64,000 nt of DNA. Source: Streptomyces cynarae. Its GTDB lineage: Bacteria; Actinomycetota; Actinomycetes; Streptomycetales; Streptomycetaceae. This document shows, one piece after another, positions 41,216 through 46,454 of the stretch. The notes below the pieces were generated by a model that was not told the DNA's origin, did not search any database, and saw only the letters and a program-made list of their open reading frames with translations. Positions within the stretch are counted from its first letter, which is position 1. Each line of letters begins with the position of its first letter. The stretch spans positions 2,401,001 to 2,465,000 of the forward strand of contig NZ_CP106793.1 in NCBI RefSeq assembly GCF_025642135.1, written 5' to 3'. The position numbers and the translations under genes were made by a program.

Positions 41216-42334
41216 ATGGTCGACACCATGGCAATGCTCCGCCCCTTCATCCGTGCGCCACGGATGGCTCGCATCTCCTCGCGCCTCGCCGACGGGTTGC
41301 CCGCCGACGCCGAGGTCCTTCTCGACGCGCCCGACGACCGCCTGGCGCCCGCCCTGGTGGCGGCGGGCCGCGGCGAGTACGGTCCGGCGGCCGAACTGCT
41401 CGCGGCCACGCGTCGGGCCGCCGAGTGGGAGGACCGCGACCGGTACGTGACACGGCTCGGCGCCTTCGCCCGCTCGCGTGACGAATGGCTCACGGACTGG
41501 CACGAGGCCGCCCCGCACGATCCGGACGCCACTTTGGTCAGCGCCCAACTCGCGGTGGCCCGCTGCTGGGAGTCGCCGGCCCGCGTCGAACTCCTGCGCA
41601 GGATCGGCCCCTTGGTGACCGCGGCGACCGAGGGCGATCCCCGGGACCCGGTGCCGTGGCGGGTGGCGCTCGACCATGCCCGCGGCGCGCACGCCCGCCA
41701 CACCGAGTACGAGCGGCTGTGGGCCGAGGCCGTACGCCGCTCCCCGCACCACTACGGCTGCCATGTCGCCGCCCTGCAGTACCTGTCCGCCGCGTGCAGC
41801 GCCCAGTGGGGAAGGACTCCGCACAGGCCCGGGGACTCGCACTGGGAGTGCTTCGACTTCGCCGAGACCGCCGCGCAGGACGCCCCGCCGGGCTCCCTGG
41901 TACAGGCGCTGCCCGTGCGCGCCGCGTTCAAGTACCTGACGGAGGGCGACGGAGTGGTCGTGACCCGGGGACGACTGGACGCGGCGGCCGACCGGGCGAT
42001 CGCGCTGTCGTCGCGGTTCGCGGCCGCCGATCCGTGGCCCGCGGAGATCCGCAATCTCCTCGTCTTCGTCCTGGTCCGGCTGGAGCGCTGGCAGGACGCG
42101 CTCACGCAGCTGAGCATGACCGGCCCGTACGCCACGTCGTTCCCCTGGGACCGGATCTGCGACGATCCGCTGGGCCGGTTTCTGGAGGTGCGGGAGGCGG
42201 TGCGACGGGCGGTGGCGTCGCCGGTTCCGCCACACATGCCCGAGCGGCTTCTGCCGCTCATCCCTCCCCCCGGCAGGCAACTGATCGGGCACCTGAACGA
42301 CCACACCGGCCACAGGCCCCGCTGCGACCATTAG
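41216..42334 (+). CDS. Helical-repeat (TPR-like) protein of unknown function
   Basis: A 372-aa soluble protein from ATG 41216 (MVDTMAMLRPF); ATG 41228 is an alternative, and neither has a good ribosome site, so the start is uncertain. The sequence is a series of amphipathic helices with TPR-like spacing: LAPALVAAGRGEYGPAAELL, TLVSAQLAVARCWE, LDHARGAHARHTEYERLWAE, and LLVFVLVRLERWQDALTQL. No catalytic motif is visible. It may be a protein-interaction adaptor. It is followed 11 nt later by the LON-domain gene and could be cotranscribed with it. Confidence 0.7.
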   Translation: MVDTMAMLRPFIRAPRMARISSRLADGLPADAEVLLDAPDDRLAPALVAAGRGEYGPAAELLAATRRAAEWEDRDRYVTRLGAFARSRDEWLTDWHEAAPHDPDATLVSAQLAVARCWESPARVELLRRIGPLVTAATEGDPRDPVPWRVALDHARGAHARHTEYERLWAEAVRRSPHHYGCHVAALQYLSAACSAQWGRTPHRPGDSHWECFDFAETAAQDAPPGSLVQALPVRAAFKYLTEGDGVVVTRGRLDAAADRAIALSSRFAAADPWPAEIRNLLVFVLVRLERWQDALTQLSMTGPYATSFPWDRICDDPLGRFLEVREAVRRAVASPVPPHMPERLLPLIPPPGRQLIGHLNDHTGHRPRCDH

Positions 42335-42345
42335 GCTTTCGGGTC

Positions 42346-43086
42346 GTGACCACCGTCCGGCTCCCGCTCTTCCCGCTGAACTCGGTGCTGTTCCCGGGGC
42401 TCGTGCTCCCGCTGAACATCTTCGAGGAGCGCTATCGCGCCCTGATGCGCGACCTGTTGAAGATCCCCGAGGACGAACCGCGCCGGTTCGCCGTCGTCGC
42501 CATCCGCGACGGCCACGAGGTGGCGCCGAGCGCGCCGGGCATGCCGGATCCCACGGCGCTGCCCGAGCGCGGGCCCGCGGCCGGCTTCGGGTCCGAACCG
42601 TCCAAGGCGTTCCACGCGGTGGGCTGTATCGCGGACGCGGCGACGATCCGGGAGCGGGCCGACGGCTCGTTCGAGGTCCTGGCGACGGGCACGACCCGCG
42701 TCCGTGTGCTCTCGGTCGACACCTCCGGCCCGTATCTGACGGCCGAGCTGGAGGAGCTGCCGGAGGAACAGGGCGACGAGGCGGGCGCGCTGGCCGAGGG
42801 GGTGCTGCGGGCGTTCCGGCAGTACCAGAAGCGGCTGGCGGGCGCGCGGGAGAGGTCCCTGTCGGCGGGTACCGACCTCCCGGACGAACCGGCAGTGGTG
42901 TCGTACCTGGTGGCGGCCGCGGTGATGCTGGACACGCCGACGAAGCAGCGGCTGCTCCAGGCGCCCGACACCGCCTCCCGCCTGCGCGACGAGCTGAAAC
43001 TGCTTCGCTCGGAGACGGCGATCATCCGTAACCTGCCGTCGTTGCCGGCGACGGAGCTGACGCGGACGCCGACGAGTCTGAACTGA
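42346..43086 (+). CDS. LON substrate-binding domain protein
   Basis: A 246-aa protein from GTG 42346 (TTVRLPLFPLNSVLFPGLVL). It consists only of the LON N-terminal substrate-binding domain: LPLNIFEERYRALMRDLL, FAVVAIRDG, GCIADAATIRERADGSFEVL and GTTRVRVLSVD, followed by helices. ATPase and protease domains are absent, so it is not the Lon protease; such stand-alone domains are common in actinobacteria and may bind client proteins. The adjacent helical-repeat gene lies 11 nt upstream, and ybaK 45 nt downstream. Confidence 0.88.
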   Translation: MTTVRLPLFPLNSVLFPGLVLPLNIFEERYRALMRDLLKIPEDEPRRFAVVAIRDGHEVAPSAPGMPDPTALPERGPAAGFGSEPSKAFHAVGCIADAATIRERADGSFEVLATGTTRVRVLSVDTSGPYLTAELEELPEEQGDEAGALAEGVLRAFRQYQKRLAGARERSLSAGTDLPDEPAVVSYLVAAAVMLDTPTKQRLLQAPDTASRLRDELKLLRSETAIIRNLPSLPATELTRTPTSLN

Positions 43087-43131
43087 CGCACAAACGCTTT
43101 TGGTAACGGGACGCGAAACGGGAACGGCCGG

Positions 43132-43638
43132 ATGGCGAAGAAGTCGAAGAAGCAGCAGCAGCAGCCCGGAGGGACACCGGCGACGGTGGCCCTGACGGCG
43201 GCCGGAGTGGAGTTCACGGTCCACGCCTACGACCACGACCCGTCCCACCCGTCCTACGGCGAGGAGGCGGCCGAGGCGATGGGGGTCTCCCCCGACCGGG
43301 TGTTCAAGACGCTGGTGGCCGACGTGGACGGGACGCTCGTGGTCGGGGTGGTCCCGGTGGCGGGTTCGCTGGACCTGAAGGCGCTGGCCACGGCGGTGGG
43401 CGGCAAGCGGGCGGCGATGGCGGACCCGGTGCTCGCGGAGCGTACGACGGGCTACGTGCGCGGCGGCATCTCGCCTCTCGGCCAGCGCAGGAAGCTCCGC
43501 ACGGTGCTGGACGAGTCGGCCTCCTCGCACACCACGATCTGCGTGTCCGCCGGCCGCCGGGGCCTGGAGGTGGAGCTGTCCCCCGAGGACCTGGCCAAGC
43601 TCACGGAGGCGACGCTGGCACCGATCGCCCGTGCCTGA
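43132..43638 (+). CDS. ybaK: Cys-tRNA(Pro)/Cys-tRNA(Cys) deacylase YbaK
   Basis: A 168-aa trans-editing protein that hydrolyses mischarged Cys-tRNA(Pro). It starts MAKKSKKQQQQPGGTPATVA, with a short Lys/Gln-rich extension before the domain. Motifs: GVEFTVHAYDHDP, VSPDRVFKTLVADVDG (conserved lysine), VVGVVPVAGSLDLKALA, YVRGGISPLGQRRKL and a GLEVELSPEDL end. It is monocistronic or cotranscribed with the LON-domain gene. Confidence 0.93.
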   Translation: MAKKSKKQQQQPGGTPATVALTAAGVEFTVHAYDHDPSHPSYGEEAAEAMGVSPDRVFKTLVADVDGTLVVGVVPVAGSLDLKALATAVGGKRAAMADPVLAERTTGYVRGGISPLGQRRKLRTVLDESASSHTTICVSAGRRGLEVELSPEDLAKLTEATLAPIARA

Positions 43639-43677
43639 CCACTCGACGGACGGCCCGTCCTCGGCTAGTACGGAAAC

Positions 43678-43752
43678 ATGTCGAAGAGGACGCGCAAGCG
43701 CAAATGGCGCATGAAGAAGGGCCACGCCAACCACGGCCACCGGCCGGCGTGA
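43678..43752 (+). CDS. 24-aa Lys/Arg-rich ORF resembling ribosomal protein bL37
   Basis: ATG 43678 to TGA 43750-43752 encodes 24 residues: MSKRTRKRKWRMKKGHANHG followed by HRPA. Length, an (M)xKRxRK N-terminus and the ANHGxRP ending match, as I recall, the 24-residue mycobacterial large-subunit protein bL37, which ends in ANHGKRPNA. TAGTAC lies 7-12 nt before the ATG, and no strong ribosome site is present, so leaderless expression is possible. It lies between ybaK and a convergent membrane-protein gene. Automated calling would miss it. The family assignment is strong but from memory. Confidence 0.72.
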   Translation: MSKRTRKRKWRMKKGHANHGHRPA

Positions 43753-43824
43753 CCACCACCCGTCACAACAGCGCCGGACGAGCCTCTTGAGCCCGTCCGG
43801 CGCAGGAGCGCTTTGAGCGCCGGG

Positions 43825-44505
43825 CTACGCCTGCGGCGCAGCCGCCCCGTACGGATCGGGATCCCGTGGAGCGAACAGAGCCGTCAGCCCCAGGTGCACC
43901 ACCAGCGCAGCCACCGACCACGCCAGCAGCGCGCCCTTGGCCCCCAGCTTCAGTGGCGCGGAGAACGTCACTCCCTTGCCCACGGCCCTGGCGTGCGCGA
44001 TGACGTTGTGCTGGGGCCCCAGCCAGACCCCCAACCGCCAGGCGAGCAGCGATCCGAGCAGTCCGCCCACACAGAGCGCCACCACCAGCGGCACCCCGCC
44101 CCGCTTGCGCACCAGGAAGACGACCAGCGCGCTGAGCACACCGAAGCCGGCCGCGAGCAGCGTGAACGTCCCGTCCACCCCGATCGCCTGCTCGCCCTCG
44201 GTGTCCTTCAGATAGACGACCCAGTTGTTGTCGACCCGGTCCCCCACCAGCGGCACATGCGGCGCCAACCACCACCACAGCACCCCGAGCAGCGCCCCGG
44301 CGAGCGCGACGCCCACCGTGATCAGGGCCGCCTCGCGCACCTCGGTCTTCATACCGGGTCCGTCCGTCCCGTAGACGGCCGTGGCACCGTGCGGTGCCGG
44401 CCCGATCCCCACAGGCTCGGACACGGCGTGCCACGCCTCGTGCGAAGAGTGCGGGGACTGTTCGTGCGGCGGCGGAGGCGGAGTCAACGGAGCGGTCACC
44501 TTCAC
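43825..44505 (-). CDS. Membrane protein (DUF2567-like)
   Basis: About 226 aa from GTG 44505 (or GTG 44499). A Pro-rich cytoplasmic N-terminus (TAPLTPPPPPHEQSPHSSHE) is followed by four membrane helices: ALITVGVALAGALLGVLWWW, FTLLAAGFGVLSALVVFLVR, GVPLVVALCVGGLLGSLLAW and ALLAWSVAALVVHLGLTALF. The extracytoplasmic loop between helices 1 and 2 (LVGDRVDNNWVVYLKDTEGE) is the conserved segment. DUF2567 is my best match; no function is known. It lies downstream of the ABC permease gene in the same direction, 28 nt away. Confidence 0.7.
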   Translation of the reverse strand: MKVTAPLTPPPPPHEQSPHSSHEAWHAVSEPVGIGPAPHGATAVYGTDGPGMKTEVREAALITVGVALAGALLGVLWWWLAPHVPLVGDRVDNNWVVYLKDTEGEQAIGVDGTFTLLAAGFGVLSALVVFLVRKRGGVPLVVALCVGGLLGSLLAWRLGVWLGPQHNVIAHARAVGKGVTFSAPLKLGAKGALLAWSVAALVVHLGLTALFAPRDPDPYGAAAPQA

Positions 44506-44533
44506 ATCCTGCCAGGCGTGTCTGTCAGCCGCG

Positions 44534-45355
44534 TCACCGGACGGCCGCCCGGCGGTACGCCCAGGTCGCCAGGGCCAGCGAGGCCACCCCGACGGCGGCG
44601 CACACGCCCAGGTCGCCGAGGACGAACGCCCAGTCCGGATGCCCGCCGAAGGTCCGCGCAAACGCCTCCACCCCGTACGTGGACGGCAGCAGGTCACGCG
44701 CGACCTGAATGGCCTCCGGCATCCGGTGCGCCGGCAGCACGCCCAGCAACAGCGCCGCCGACATGCCCAACTGCCCGAGCAGCGTGGCCAGTTCGGGCCG
44801 CGGCGCAAGCAGTCCCAGTGCGGCGCCGAGCCCGGACAGCGCGGCGCCGGCCAGCGGGATCACCGCCGCGAGAACCCACAGGTGGGCGAGCGGCAGCCCG
44901 AACAGCACGCACCCGAAGACTGCGGTCACCAGGGTCCCGGGCACGGTGAAGGAGGCATACGCCGCCGCGGCGCCGAGAACCACCGCCGCGGCCGGCACCG
45001 GCAGCGTGGCGTAGTGGTCGAGCCCGCCGCTGCCGCGCAGCTGGCCGAAGTACTGGGCGAGCAGGTTCAGACCGACGTACGCGACCACGAGCACGGACGA
45101 TCCGGCGACCACGGACCACGCGTCGCTCCCGCCGCCGCTCACCACCCCGCGCATCATGATCATGATGCCGATCGACTGGAAGGTCGCCACGAACAGCAGC
45201 GGGATCCGCGCGACCCGCGCCCTGGACAGCTGGGCCCGGTACACGGCGGCCATGGACGGCCACAGCCGCGCCCGCGGCCCGAGGGCGGCGCCGTCCACGG
45301 CACCGTCGTCCGTCGCCCGGGCGCCGGGCAGAACCCCGGCGGGTACGACACTCAC
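44534..45355 (-). CDS. ABC-2-type transporter permease
   Basis: About 273 aa from GTG 45355, preceded by GAGGAG; an ATG at 45415 is an alternative but its extra codons have poor GC3. Six membrane segments are seen, including FVATFQSIGIMIMMRGV, SVLVVAYVGLNLLAQYFGQL and LLGQLGMSAALLLGVL. PSTYGVEAFARTFGGHPDW is characteristic of ABC-2 drug and lipid exporters. The ATP-binding subunit is the next gene upstream (82 nt away, same strand), so both form an exporter of unknown substrate. Confidence 0.85.
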   Translation of the reverse strand: MSVVPAGVLPGARATDDGAVDGAALGPRARLWPSMAAVYRAQLSRARVARIPLLFVATFQSIGIMIMMRGVVSGGGSDAWSVVAGSSVLVVAYVGLNLLAQYFGQLRGSGGLDHYATLPVPAAAVVLGAAAAYASFTVPGTLVTAVFGCVLFGLPLAHLWVLAAVIPLAGAALSGLGAALGLLAPRPELATLLGQLGMSAALLLGVLPAHRMPEAIQVARDLLPSTYGVEAFARTFGGHPDWAFVLGDLGVCAAVGVASLALATWAYRRAAVR

Positions 45356-45437
45356 CTCGCGCTGCTCCTCTTCGTTTTCCCCAAGGTCCCCGTAGAGCTC
45401 CTTCCGGAGCCCCATACGGACACGACGGCCCCCGCGC

Positions 45438-46454
45438 TCATGCCTTCACCAGCCCCTGACCGCTGCCGCCGAGCGTCAGATAGACGTCCTCCAGGCTGGG
45501 CGTGGCCAGTGTGAAGTCGTCGAGGGCGGCGAAGGCGGCGCCCCCGGTGACGGTGGCGACGGCCGCGCGCGCCTCCTCGGGGGCCATCCGCAGCGACCAG
45601 CGGCGCCCGGACTCCACGGCGCGGGTGCGCAGCGCGGCGACCTCGGGCACCTCCAGGGGCGCCCGCTCGCGCCACACGAGTTCGACGCGGACCTCCCCGG
45701 CGACGCGCTCCTTGAGCCCGGCGGGGGTGTCGCAGGCGATGATCCTGCCCCGGTCGAGGACCGCGACCCGGTCGAGGACGGTCTCCGCCTCGATGACGTT
45801 GTGGGTGACCAGCAGGACGGTCGTCCCGAGCTCGGCCCGCCGCCGGTCCACGGCGGCCCACACCGCGCGGCGGGCGACCGGGTCCATGCCGGTGGTCGGC
45901 TCGTCGAGCACCAGCAGCGGTCGCTCCCCCATCAGTGCGGCGGCGAAGCAGGCGAGTCGGCGCTGGCCGCCGGAGAGCTTCTTCAGCGGCCTGGAGGCGA
46001 TCGGTGCGAGCCCGAGTTCGTCGAGGACGGCGTCCCGCTCCTCGCGGGCGTGCCGCAGGTCGAGCCCGCGCAGCCGTCCGGTGGTCTCGGCGGCGAGCGA
46101 GACGGTCAGCTCGTCGAGGGCGGTGGACTCCTGGCCGAGGTAGGCGAGGATACGGGCGGCCCGCTCGGGGTGGCGCACGATGTCGTGCCCGAGGATCTCC
46201 ACGCTGCCGCTGTCGGGCCGCATCAGTCCGGTCAACTGGCGTAGGAGGGTGGACTTACCGGCGCCGTTCGGTCCGAGCAGTCCGAAGATCTCGCCGCGCC
46301 GGATGTCCAGCCGTACGTCGTCGGTGGCCCGCACCTCGGGGGCCCCGGGCGTGCCGCGTCGCCCCCGTACCGCCGGATAGGTTTTGGTCAGCCCGCGCAC
46401 GGCGCACACGACGTCGTCACTGTGCCGTGGTGCCGTTGCGCTGCGCTTGCTCAC
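45438..46454 (-). CDS. ABC transporter ATP-binding protein
   Basis: A 338-aa nucleotide-binding subunit starting GTG 46454. Walker A is LGPNGAGKSTLLRQ, the Q-loop is AYLGQESTALDELTV, the signature is LSGGQRRLACFAAALMGERP, Walker B is LLVLDEPTTGMDP and the H-loop is LLVTHNVIEAE. A C-terminal regulatory extension of about 90 residues follows (VRVELVWRERAPLEV), as in DrrA-type exporter ATPases. It pairs with the permease gene downstream. The export substrate is unknown. Confidence 0.92.
   Translation of the reverse strand: MSKRSATAPRHSDDVVCAVRGLTKTYPAVRGRRGTPGAPEVRATDDVRLDIRRGEIFGLLGPNGAGKSTLLRQLTGLMRPDSGSVEILGHDIVRHPERAARILAYLGQESTALDELTVSLAAETTGRLRGLDLRHAREERDAVLDELGLAPIASRPLKKLSGGQRRLACFAAALMGERPLLVLDEPTTGMDPVARRAVWAAVDRRRAELGTTVLLVTHNVIEAETVLDRVAVLDRGRIIACDTPAGLKERVAGEVRVELVWRERAPLEVPEVAALRTRAVESGRRWSLRMAPEEARAAVATVTGGAAFAALDDFTLATPSLEDVYLTLGGSGQGLVKA

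Follow-up and report, generated by a model that had tools for sequence, protein, structure and literature searches.

A short open reading frame of Streptomyces cynarae, located at positions 43678–43752 on the forward strand of the window (the whole stretch of 64,000 nucleotides analysed here), is highly likely to be a functional gene for a divergent, streptomycete-specific form of the ribosomal protein bL37. As judged from its sequence, the ORF is genuine and a bL37 homologue. It belongs to a divergent bL37 subfamily, termed type C here, which is under selection, has been overlooked by the naming cut-off of the family and is optional rather than core.

Identity of the ORF

The ORF consists of 24 codons followed by TGA and translates to MSKRTRKRKWRMKKGHANHGHRPA, with the C-terminal end ANHGxRP; in sequence, coordinates, strand and length it is as an earlier sequence-only reading of this DNA had described it. 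Its identification as a bL37-like type C gene draws on NCBIfam, on homologues, on pN/pS and on a profile search of the PDB. The NCBIfam bL37 model NF047428 matches the window protein at E 7.3e-6 and over nearly its full length, with protein residues 1–23 on model positions 1–22 of 24, and the 26.1 bits obtained fall below the 30-bit cut-off of the model. When the whole genome was scanned in six frames with this model, the ORF was recovered at E 1.3e-3 and was the only bL37 found, the next matches being short, inside longer frames and at E of at least 0.4. A Pfam search of the protein gave no match, and the planctomycete bL37 model NF047429, which carries the same NCBI name, gives the window protein 9 bits, its cut-off being 40.

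In a single-sequence search of PDB chains, the window protein matched 8crx_V (E 0.11), 7kgb_v (0.86) and 5o60_3 (1.8), as well as two designed repeat proteins, the better of which ranked top. A profile of 22 rows, denoted A2, which takes in the four Streptomyces types described below (the window type included) and five other actinobacterial sequences, matched five bL37-type chains in the PDB at E 1.3e-9 to 1.3e-7, mycobacterial and Cutibacterium chains among them. The score below the curated cut-off and the weak PDB matches of the window protein on its own count against the identification; the NCBIfam E-value and the PDB bL37 matches bear out the homology that had been proposed. The ANHGKRPNA end that the sequence-only reading gave for mycobacterial bL37 is correct for Mycobacterium smegmatis (PDB 5o60 chain 3).

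The type C subfamily

Among 150 Streptomyces genomes, 51 (S. cynarae included) match the window protein at E < 1e-4; the matching protein is 100% identical in one other genome and 75–91% identical in 49. The type C set comprises 96 distinct copies, 28 from loci found by YbaK and 68 from bL37 searches, which are related by descent, so that the counts given here are not independent. Asn-His-Gly is kept in 96/96, NHGxRP is preceded by A, S or C in all 96, the basic helix contains a Trp in 95 and the protein ends in RPA in 94; the length is 24 aa in 93 copies, 26 aa in two and 22 aa in one. Conservation of the ANHGxRP motif at this locus in other streptomycetes, which the sequence-only reading had set as a test, was seen as NHGxRP in every copy.

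Most type C copies, the window protein among them, have one extra residue before the ANHG/SNHG loop and so depart from the canonical spacing. When NF047428 was run on six single type C proteins (that of the window and five others), one reached 30.7 bits and the others scored 19.6–26.1; in the six-frame genome scans one type C place, in G060, lay above the cut-off. Two type C proteins from another genus (L226, L227) have three residues inserted before ANHG and are 26 aa long, so the linker length before this motif varies.

The bL37 proteins of Mycobacterium and Cutibacterium (NF047428; 5o60, 7kgb, 8crx) share with type C a size of 24 residues, an M-S/A/G-K start, a Lys/Arg-rich first half and the ANHGxRP tail. 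Unlike them, type C carries a Trp in its helix (TRKRKWR), mostly has an extra residue ahead of ANHG, ends in RPA in place of RPNA, lies beside ybaK and, in two thirds of copies, has a leaderless-type promoter.

Other bL37 types in Streptomyces and relatives

The 150 Streptomyces genomes were searched and the hits read, and the forms found are named here type A (MAKRGNKKRARKKKKANHGKRPNA and kin), type B (MSSKRRRKKKARRKNGANHGSRPQS and kin), type C (the window type) and type D (MSKRARKKRARRKKGSNHGSKPNC and kin). Type A occurs in 26 genomes, type B in 54 and type C in 51, while no bL37 was detected in 42, the types of G031 and G136 being assigned from search-match rows; type D occurs in 11 genomes by pattern, or 12 with the type D gene of G134. 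Only types other than C are carried by 57 of the 150. Types A and B never occur together (0/150; Fisher p 2.5e-6, a value that ignores relatedness), A and C do so in three genomes and B and C in 20, and type C is the sole type in 26. Types A, B and D share with type C the size, the NHG loop and the match to NF047428, whereas they lie at other loci; the representatives tested all reach the cut-off of the model, with 47.0 bits for A, 30.8 and 30.7 for B, and 38.9 and 31.6 for D, and the A, B and D copies examined have Shine–Dalgarno (SD)-like leaders.

The sequence-only reading had described the protein as a core component of the large subunit. This part of it must be rejected, because type C is found in only 51/150 Streptomyces genomes and bL37 is undetected in 42/150; its other parts, namely bL37 homology, adjacency to ybaK and a promoter arrangement that fits leaderless expression, stand. 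Two of the 42 genomes are incomplete assemblies (78% and 82%), and the best match in the 42, at E up to 10, was 0.146, inside a frame of 1342 aa; bL37 may be too divergent for detection in genomes scored as having none.

Within the family, type C was found in six of the 17 genera sampled, where L228 is an altered copy. A bL37-like match occurs in 200 of 296 genomes of the class, and the 14 non-Streptomyces sequences that were read have the canonical form.

The surroundings of the other types are varied. Type D loci (L029, L088–L090, L093, L097, L145, L155, L161–L163, L172), several of which encode a C-terminal Cys, closely follow a short-chain dehydrogenase-like gene in six of seven neighbourhoods inspected closely, neighbours being viewed at L088, L089, L090, L093 and L097. 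Type A at L091 and L098 adjoins genes for a putative acetyl-CoA acetyltransferase and a MeaB-like GTPase (both named by eye), and in L099 and L101 it lies elsewhere. The neighbours of type B genes (L083–L087, L094–L096) differ between species, as if these genes were mobile, and L085 is some 30 kb away from the end of its contig. No plasmid match was found for one type B peptide and no phage match for one canonical bL37 peptide, which is weak evidence with queries this short.

A limited literature search found no study of bL37 in Streptomyces; in the searched passages of PMC10085706 and PMC5876184 the word ‘Streptomyces’ has 0 occurrences, and PMC5876184 is said to show bL37 in actinobacteria in its own supplementary figures.

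The ybaK locus and probable loss of the gene

Upstream of the ORF, on the same strand, lies a gene for a ybaK-like aminoacyl-tRNA editing protein (43132–43638; Pfam PF04073, E 2e-24), whose stop is 39 nt from the ATG of the ORF. Downstream is a convergent gene that matches DUF2567 weakly, under the Pfam cut-off, and between the two a GC-rich hairpin is predicted on the forward strand at 43771–43803 (fold of 43753–43822, −32.3 kcal/mol, z −4.1), which is a possible transcription end without a T-run; a terminator scan that requires a T-run found none on the strand of the ORF. An Rfam scan of positions 42000–45500 gave no match.

Across the 96 type C copies, ybaK lies upstream on the same strand in 93 and in the opposite orientation in two, and is missing from the fetched stretch in one, the synteny of 28 copies holding by construction since their loci were found by YbaK. 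With these left out, ybaK is nearby in 67 of 68 copies (65 on the same strand, two opposite) and one is without it, the fetched stretch having been chosen so as to reach ybaK in 19 of the 68; 60 of the 68 lie on the same strand and within 200 nt of it. The location beside ybaK that had been noted for the ORF is found in other streptomycetes too. In two Streptomyces loci (L193, L194) type C still adjoins ybaK even though ybaK is inverted.

The gene is optional and has probably been lost repeatedly. Among 80 named loci found through YbaK, type C stands directly after ybaK in 29, and five loci end too soon. A quickly built tree of the ybaK region has 81 rows, of which 76 are labelled (30 with and 46 without type C); on it the presence/absence label changes at least 12 times, or nine times if only well supported branches are counted, compared with 24 changes on average for shuffled labels. 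The tree itself cannot separate gain from loss; repeated loss is the likelier because the place is identical, 39–41 nt after ybaK in most. At this same place S. mutabilis (L273) has a decayed relative, with start and NHG motif altered and the stop missing from its usual position.

Promoter-like boxes and putative leaderless expression

A −35-like box, TCGACG (43643–43648, forward strand), and a −10-like box, TAGTAC (43666–43671, forward strand), precede the ORF. The latter lies 6 nt ahead of the ATG, which places the predicted transcription start at or adjacent to the A of the ATG. The same arrangement recurs in 64 of the 96 type C copies, with a −35-like box (exactly TCGACG in 57) separated by a constant 17-nt spacer from a −10-like box (such as TAAGTA or TAAGCA) that ends 6–8 nt before the start; it is found in 36 of 68 copies when those found by YbaK are left out, and in 2 of 1920 base-shuffled upstream sequences. 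By the classical consensus the boxes are weak, the −10-like box mostly lacking the final T, and a strict sigma-70 consensus promoter scan did not find them. In 15 sequences from other genera the type C copies are without them.

An SD-like word that stops 4 nt or more ahead of the start is seen in 0/64 promoter-bearing copies versus 26/32 of the others, and the window gene follows the leaderless pattern: it lacks an SD word and has TAGTAC at a distance of 6 nt from the start. The boxes and the missing normally spaced SD support leaderless expression, and the earlier suggestion that TAGTAC hints at a leaderless transcript is in keeping with this promoter-like arrangement, which would fit a leaderless or nearly leaderless mRNA. 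Of the 64 promoter-bearing copies, 28 do have an SD-like word at a distance of 1–3 nt from the start, for which reason a leadered mRNA is possible; an mRNA with the 5′ end that the boxes predict is unlikely to include that word.

Proposed function and competing explanations

According to PMC5876184 and PMC10085706, bL37 occupies a pocket that H39, H40, H72, H89 and the tip of the 5S rRNA form close to the peptidyl transferase centre, and it may have a stabilising role; PMC6133939 describes its exact function as unknown. The same 50S pocket is reported to hold the N-terminal extension of uL30 in Borrelia and CLaSP in Coxiella, which are different proteins (PMC10618245, PMC13392368).

By analogy, the function of type C is most likely the same as that of bL37 elsewhere, its binding to the ribosome being inferred from homology. 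The mRNA would begin at the ATG or within 1–2 nt of it, and the peptide would sit in the 50S pocket between 23S helices H39–H42, H72, H89 and the 5S tip, placed as is bL37 of mycobacteria and Cutibacterium, with its N-terminal basic helix, including the Trp, and its ANHGxRP tail against rRNA. There it would stabilise the area around the peptidyl transferase centre. Such a bL37 would be a non-essential, fine-tuning part of the ribosome, since many streptomycetes are without detectable bL37 though the sampled pocket RNA is unchanged.

A broader proposal can be advanced only tentatively, namely that bL37 in Streptomyces is an interchangeable, optional insert by the peptidyl transferase centre, of which at least four types replace one another or vanish, so that the ribosomes of related species differ in this pocket, and that type C, if leaderless, could be regulated by the state of the ribosomes. 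If true, a whole ribosomal-protein subfamily in the main antibiotic-producing genus escapes the family naming cut-off, and closely related species naturally differ in whether they have, have exchanged or lack a protein by the peptidyl transferase centre, which provides a natural experiment on the role of bL37, on ribosome heterogeneity and possibly on the response to peptidyl-transferase-centre drugs.

Type C might instead stand in for a main bL37 under stress or in certain growth phases, yielding heterogeneous ribosomes. The presence of four sequence types within one genus, the genomes that combine type C with B or with A, and a type C promoter unlike that of the leadered A and B genes speak for such a role, but in the source genome and 25 others type C is the only type found and so cannot be an alternative there; the mutual exclusion of A and B also looks more like replacement, though common descent within the A lineage could produce it as well. 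We regard this explanation as unlikely. Somewhat less likely again is a paralogue that descends from bL37 but no longer belongs to the ribosome, such as a free RNA-binding or antimicrobial peptide. Type C has diverged from canonical bL37 and often occurs alongside type B, and the bL37 of Cutibacterium is reported to inhibit the growth of Gram-positive bacteria in disk assays (PMC10085706). Against this, 26 of the 51 type C genomes are without any other detected bL37, the NHGxRP tail is invariant, no signal peptide or export gene was seen, and the strongly basic character of the peptide resembles that of an rRNA binder.

Selection on the reading frame

Over the 93 type C ORFs of 24 codons, pN/pS is 0.21 in the frame of the ORF compared with 2.2 and 1.65 in the two shifted frames of the same DNA, and pN is lower than pS in 3998 of 4005 type C pairs. 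Mean entropy at codon positions 1, 2 and 3 is 0.35, 0.25 and 1.02, respectively, the third being the most variable. Purifying selection acts in the ORF frame alone, not in the shifted frames. A chance ORF within a conserved intergenic element, for which the very short length, a GC-rich genome with many spurious ORFs and the conserved upstream nucleotides might speak, is thereby rendered extremely improbable, as it is by homology to a ribosomal protein of solved structure.

The ribosomal pocket in Streptomyces

One Streptomyces large-subunit structure was found, 9QT5, reported in PMC12905159 to be the 50S of S. fradiae; its uL30 closely matches that of the source genome. None of its chains of at least 20 residues matched the bL37 profile, and either the species is free of bL37 or the peptide was left unmodelled. 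The missing chain in this Streptomyces 50S counts against type C as a ribosomal protein.

An extension of uL30 as a substitute for bL37, as in Borrelia, was rejected: of 30 Streptomyces uL30 loci retrieved, 23 were readable (17 in bL37-lacking genomes), and none of these 23 showed a lengthened start, the seven that did not match the motif being left out of the comparison. Pocket rRNA is likewise an unlikely cause of bL37 exchange or loss. From 32 stretches fetched for 23S, six that were too short and L355, which is not 23S, were dropped, and 25 were kept, two of which contain runs of N. Within the pocket helices, taken at approximate limits, eight of 237 columns are variable in the 25 genomes, and none of the columns separates A, B, C or bL37-lacking genomes. 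The one 23S copy of the source genome that was read (L346) has a one-base alignment gap at a position that is otherwise G (E. coli 976).
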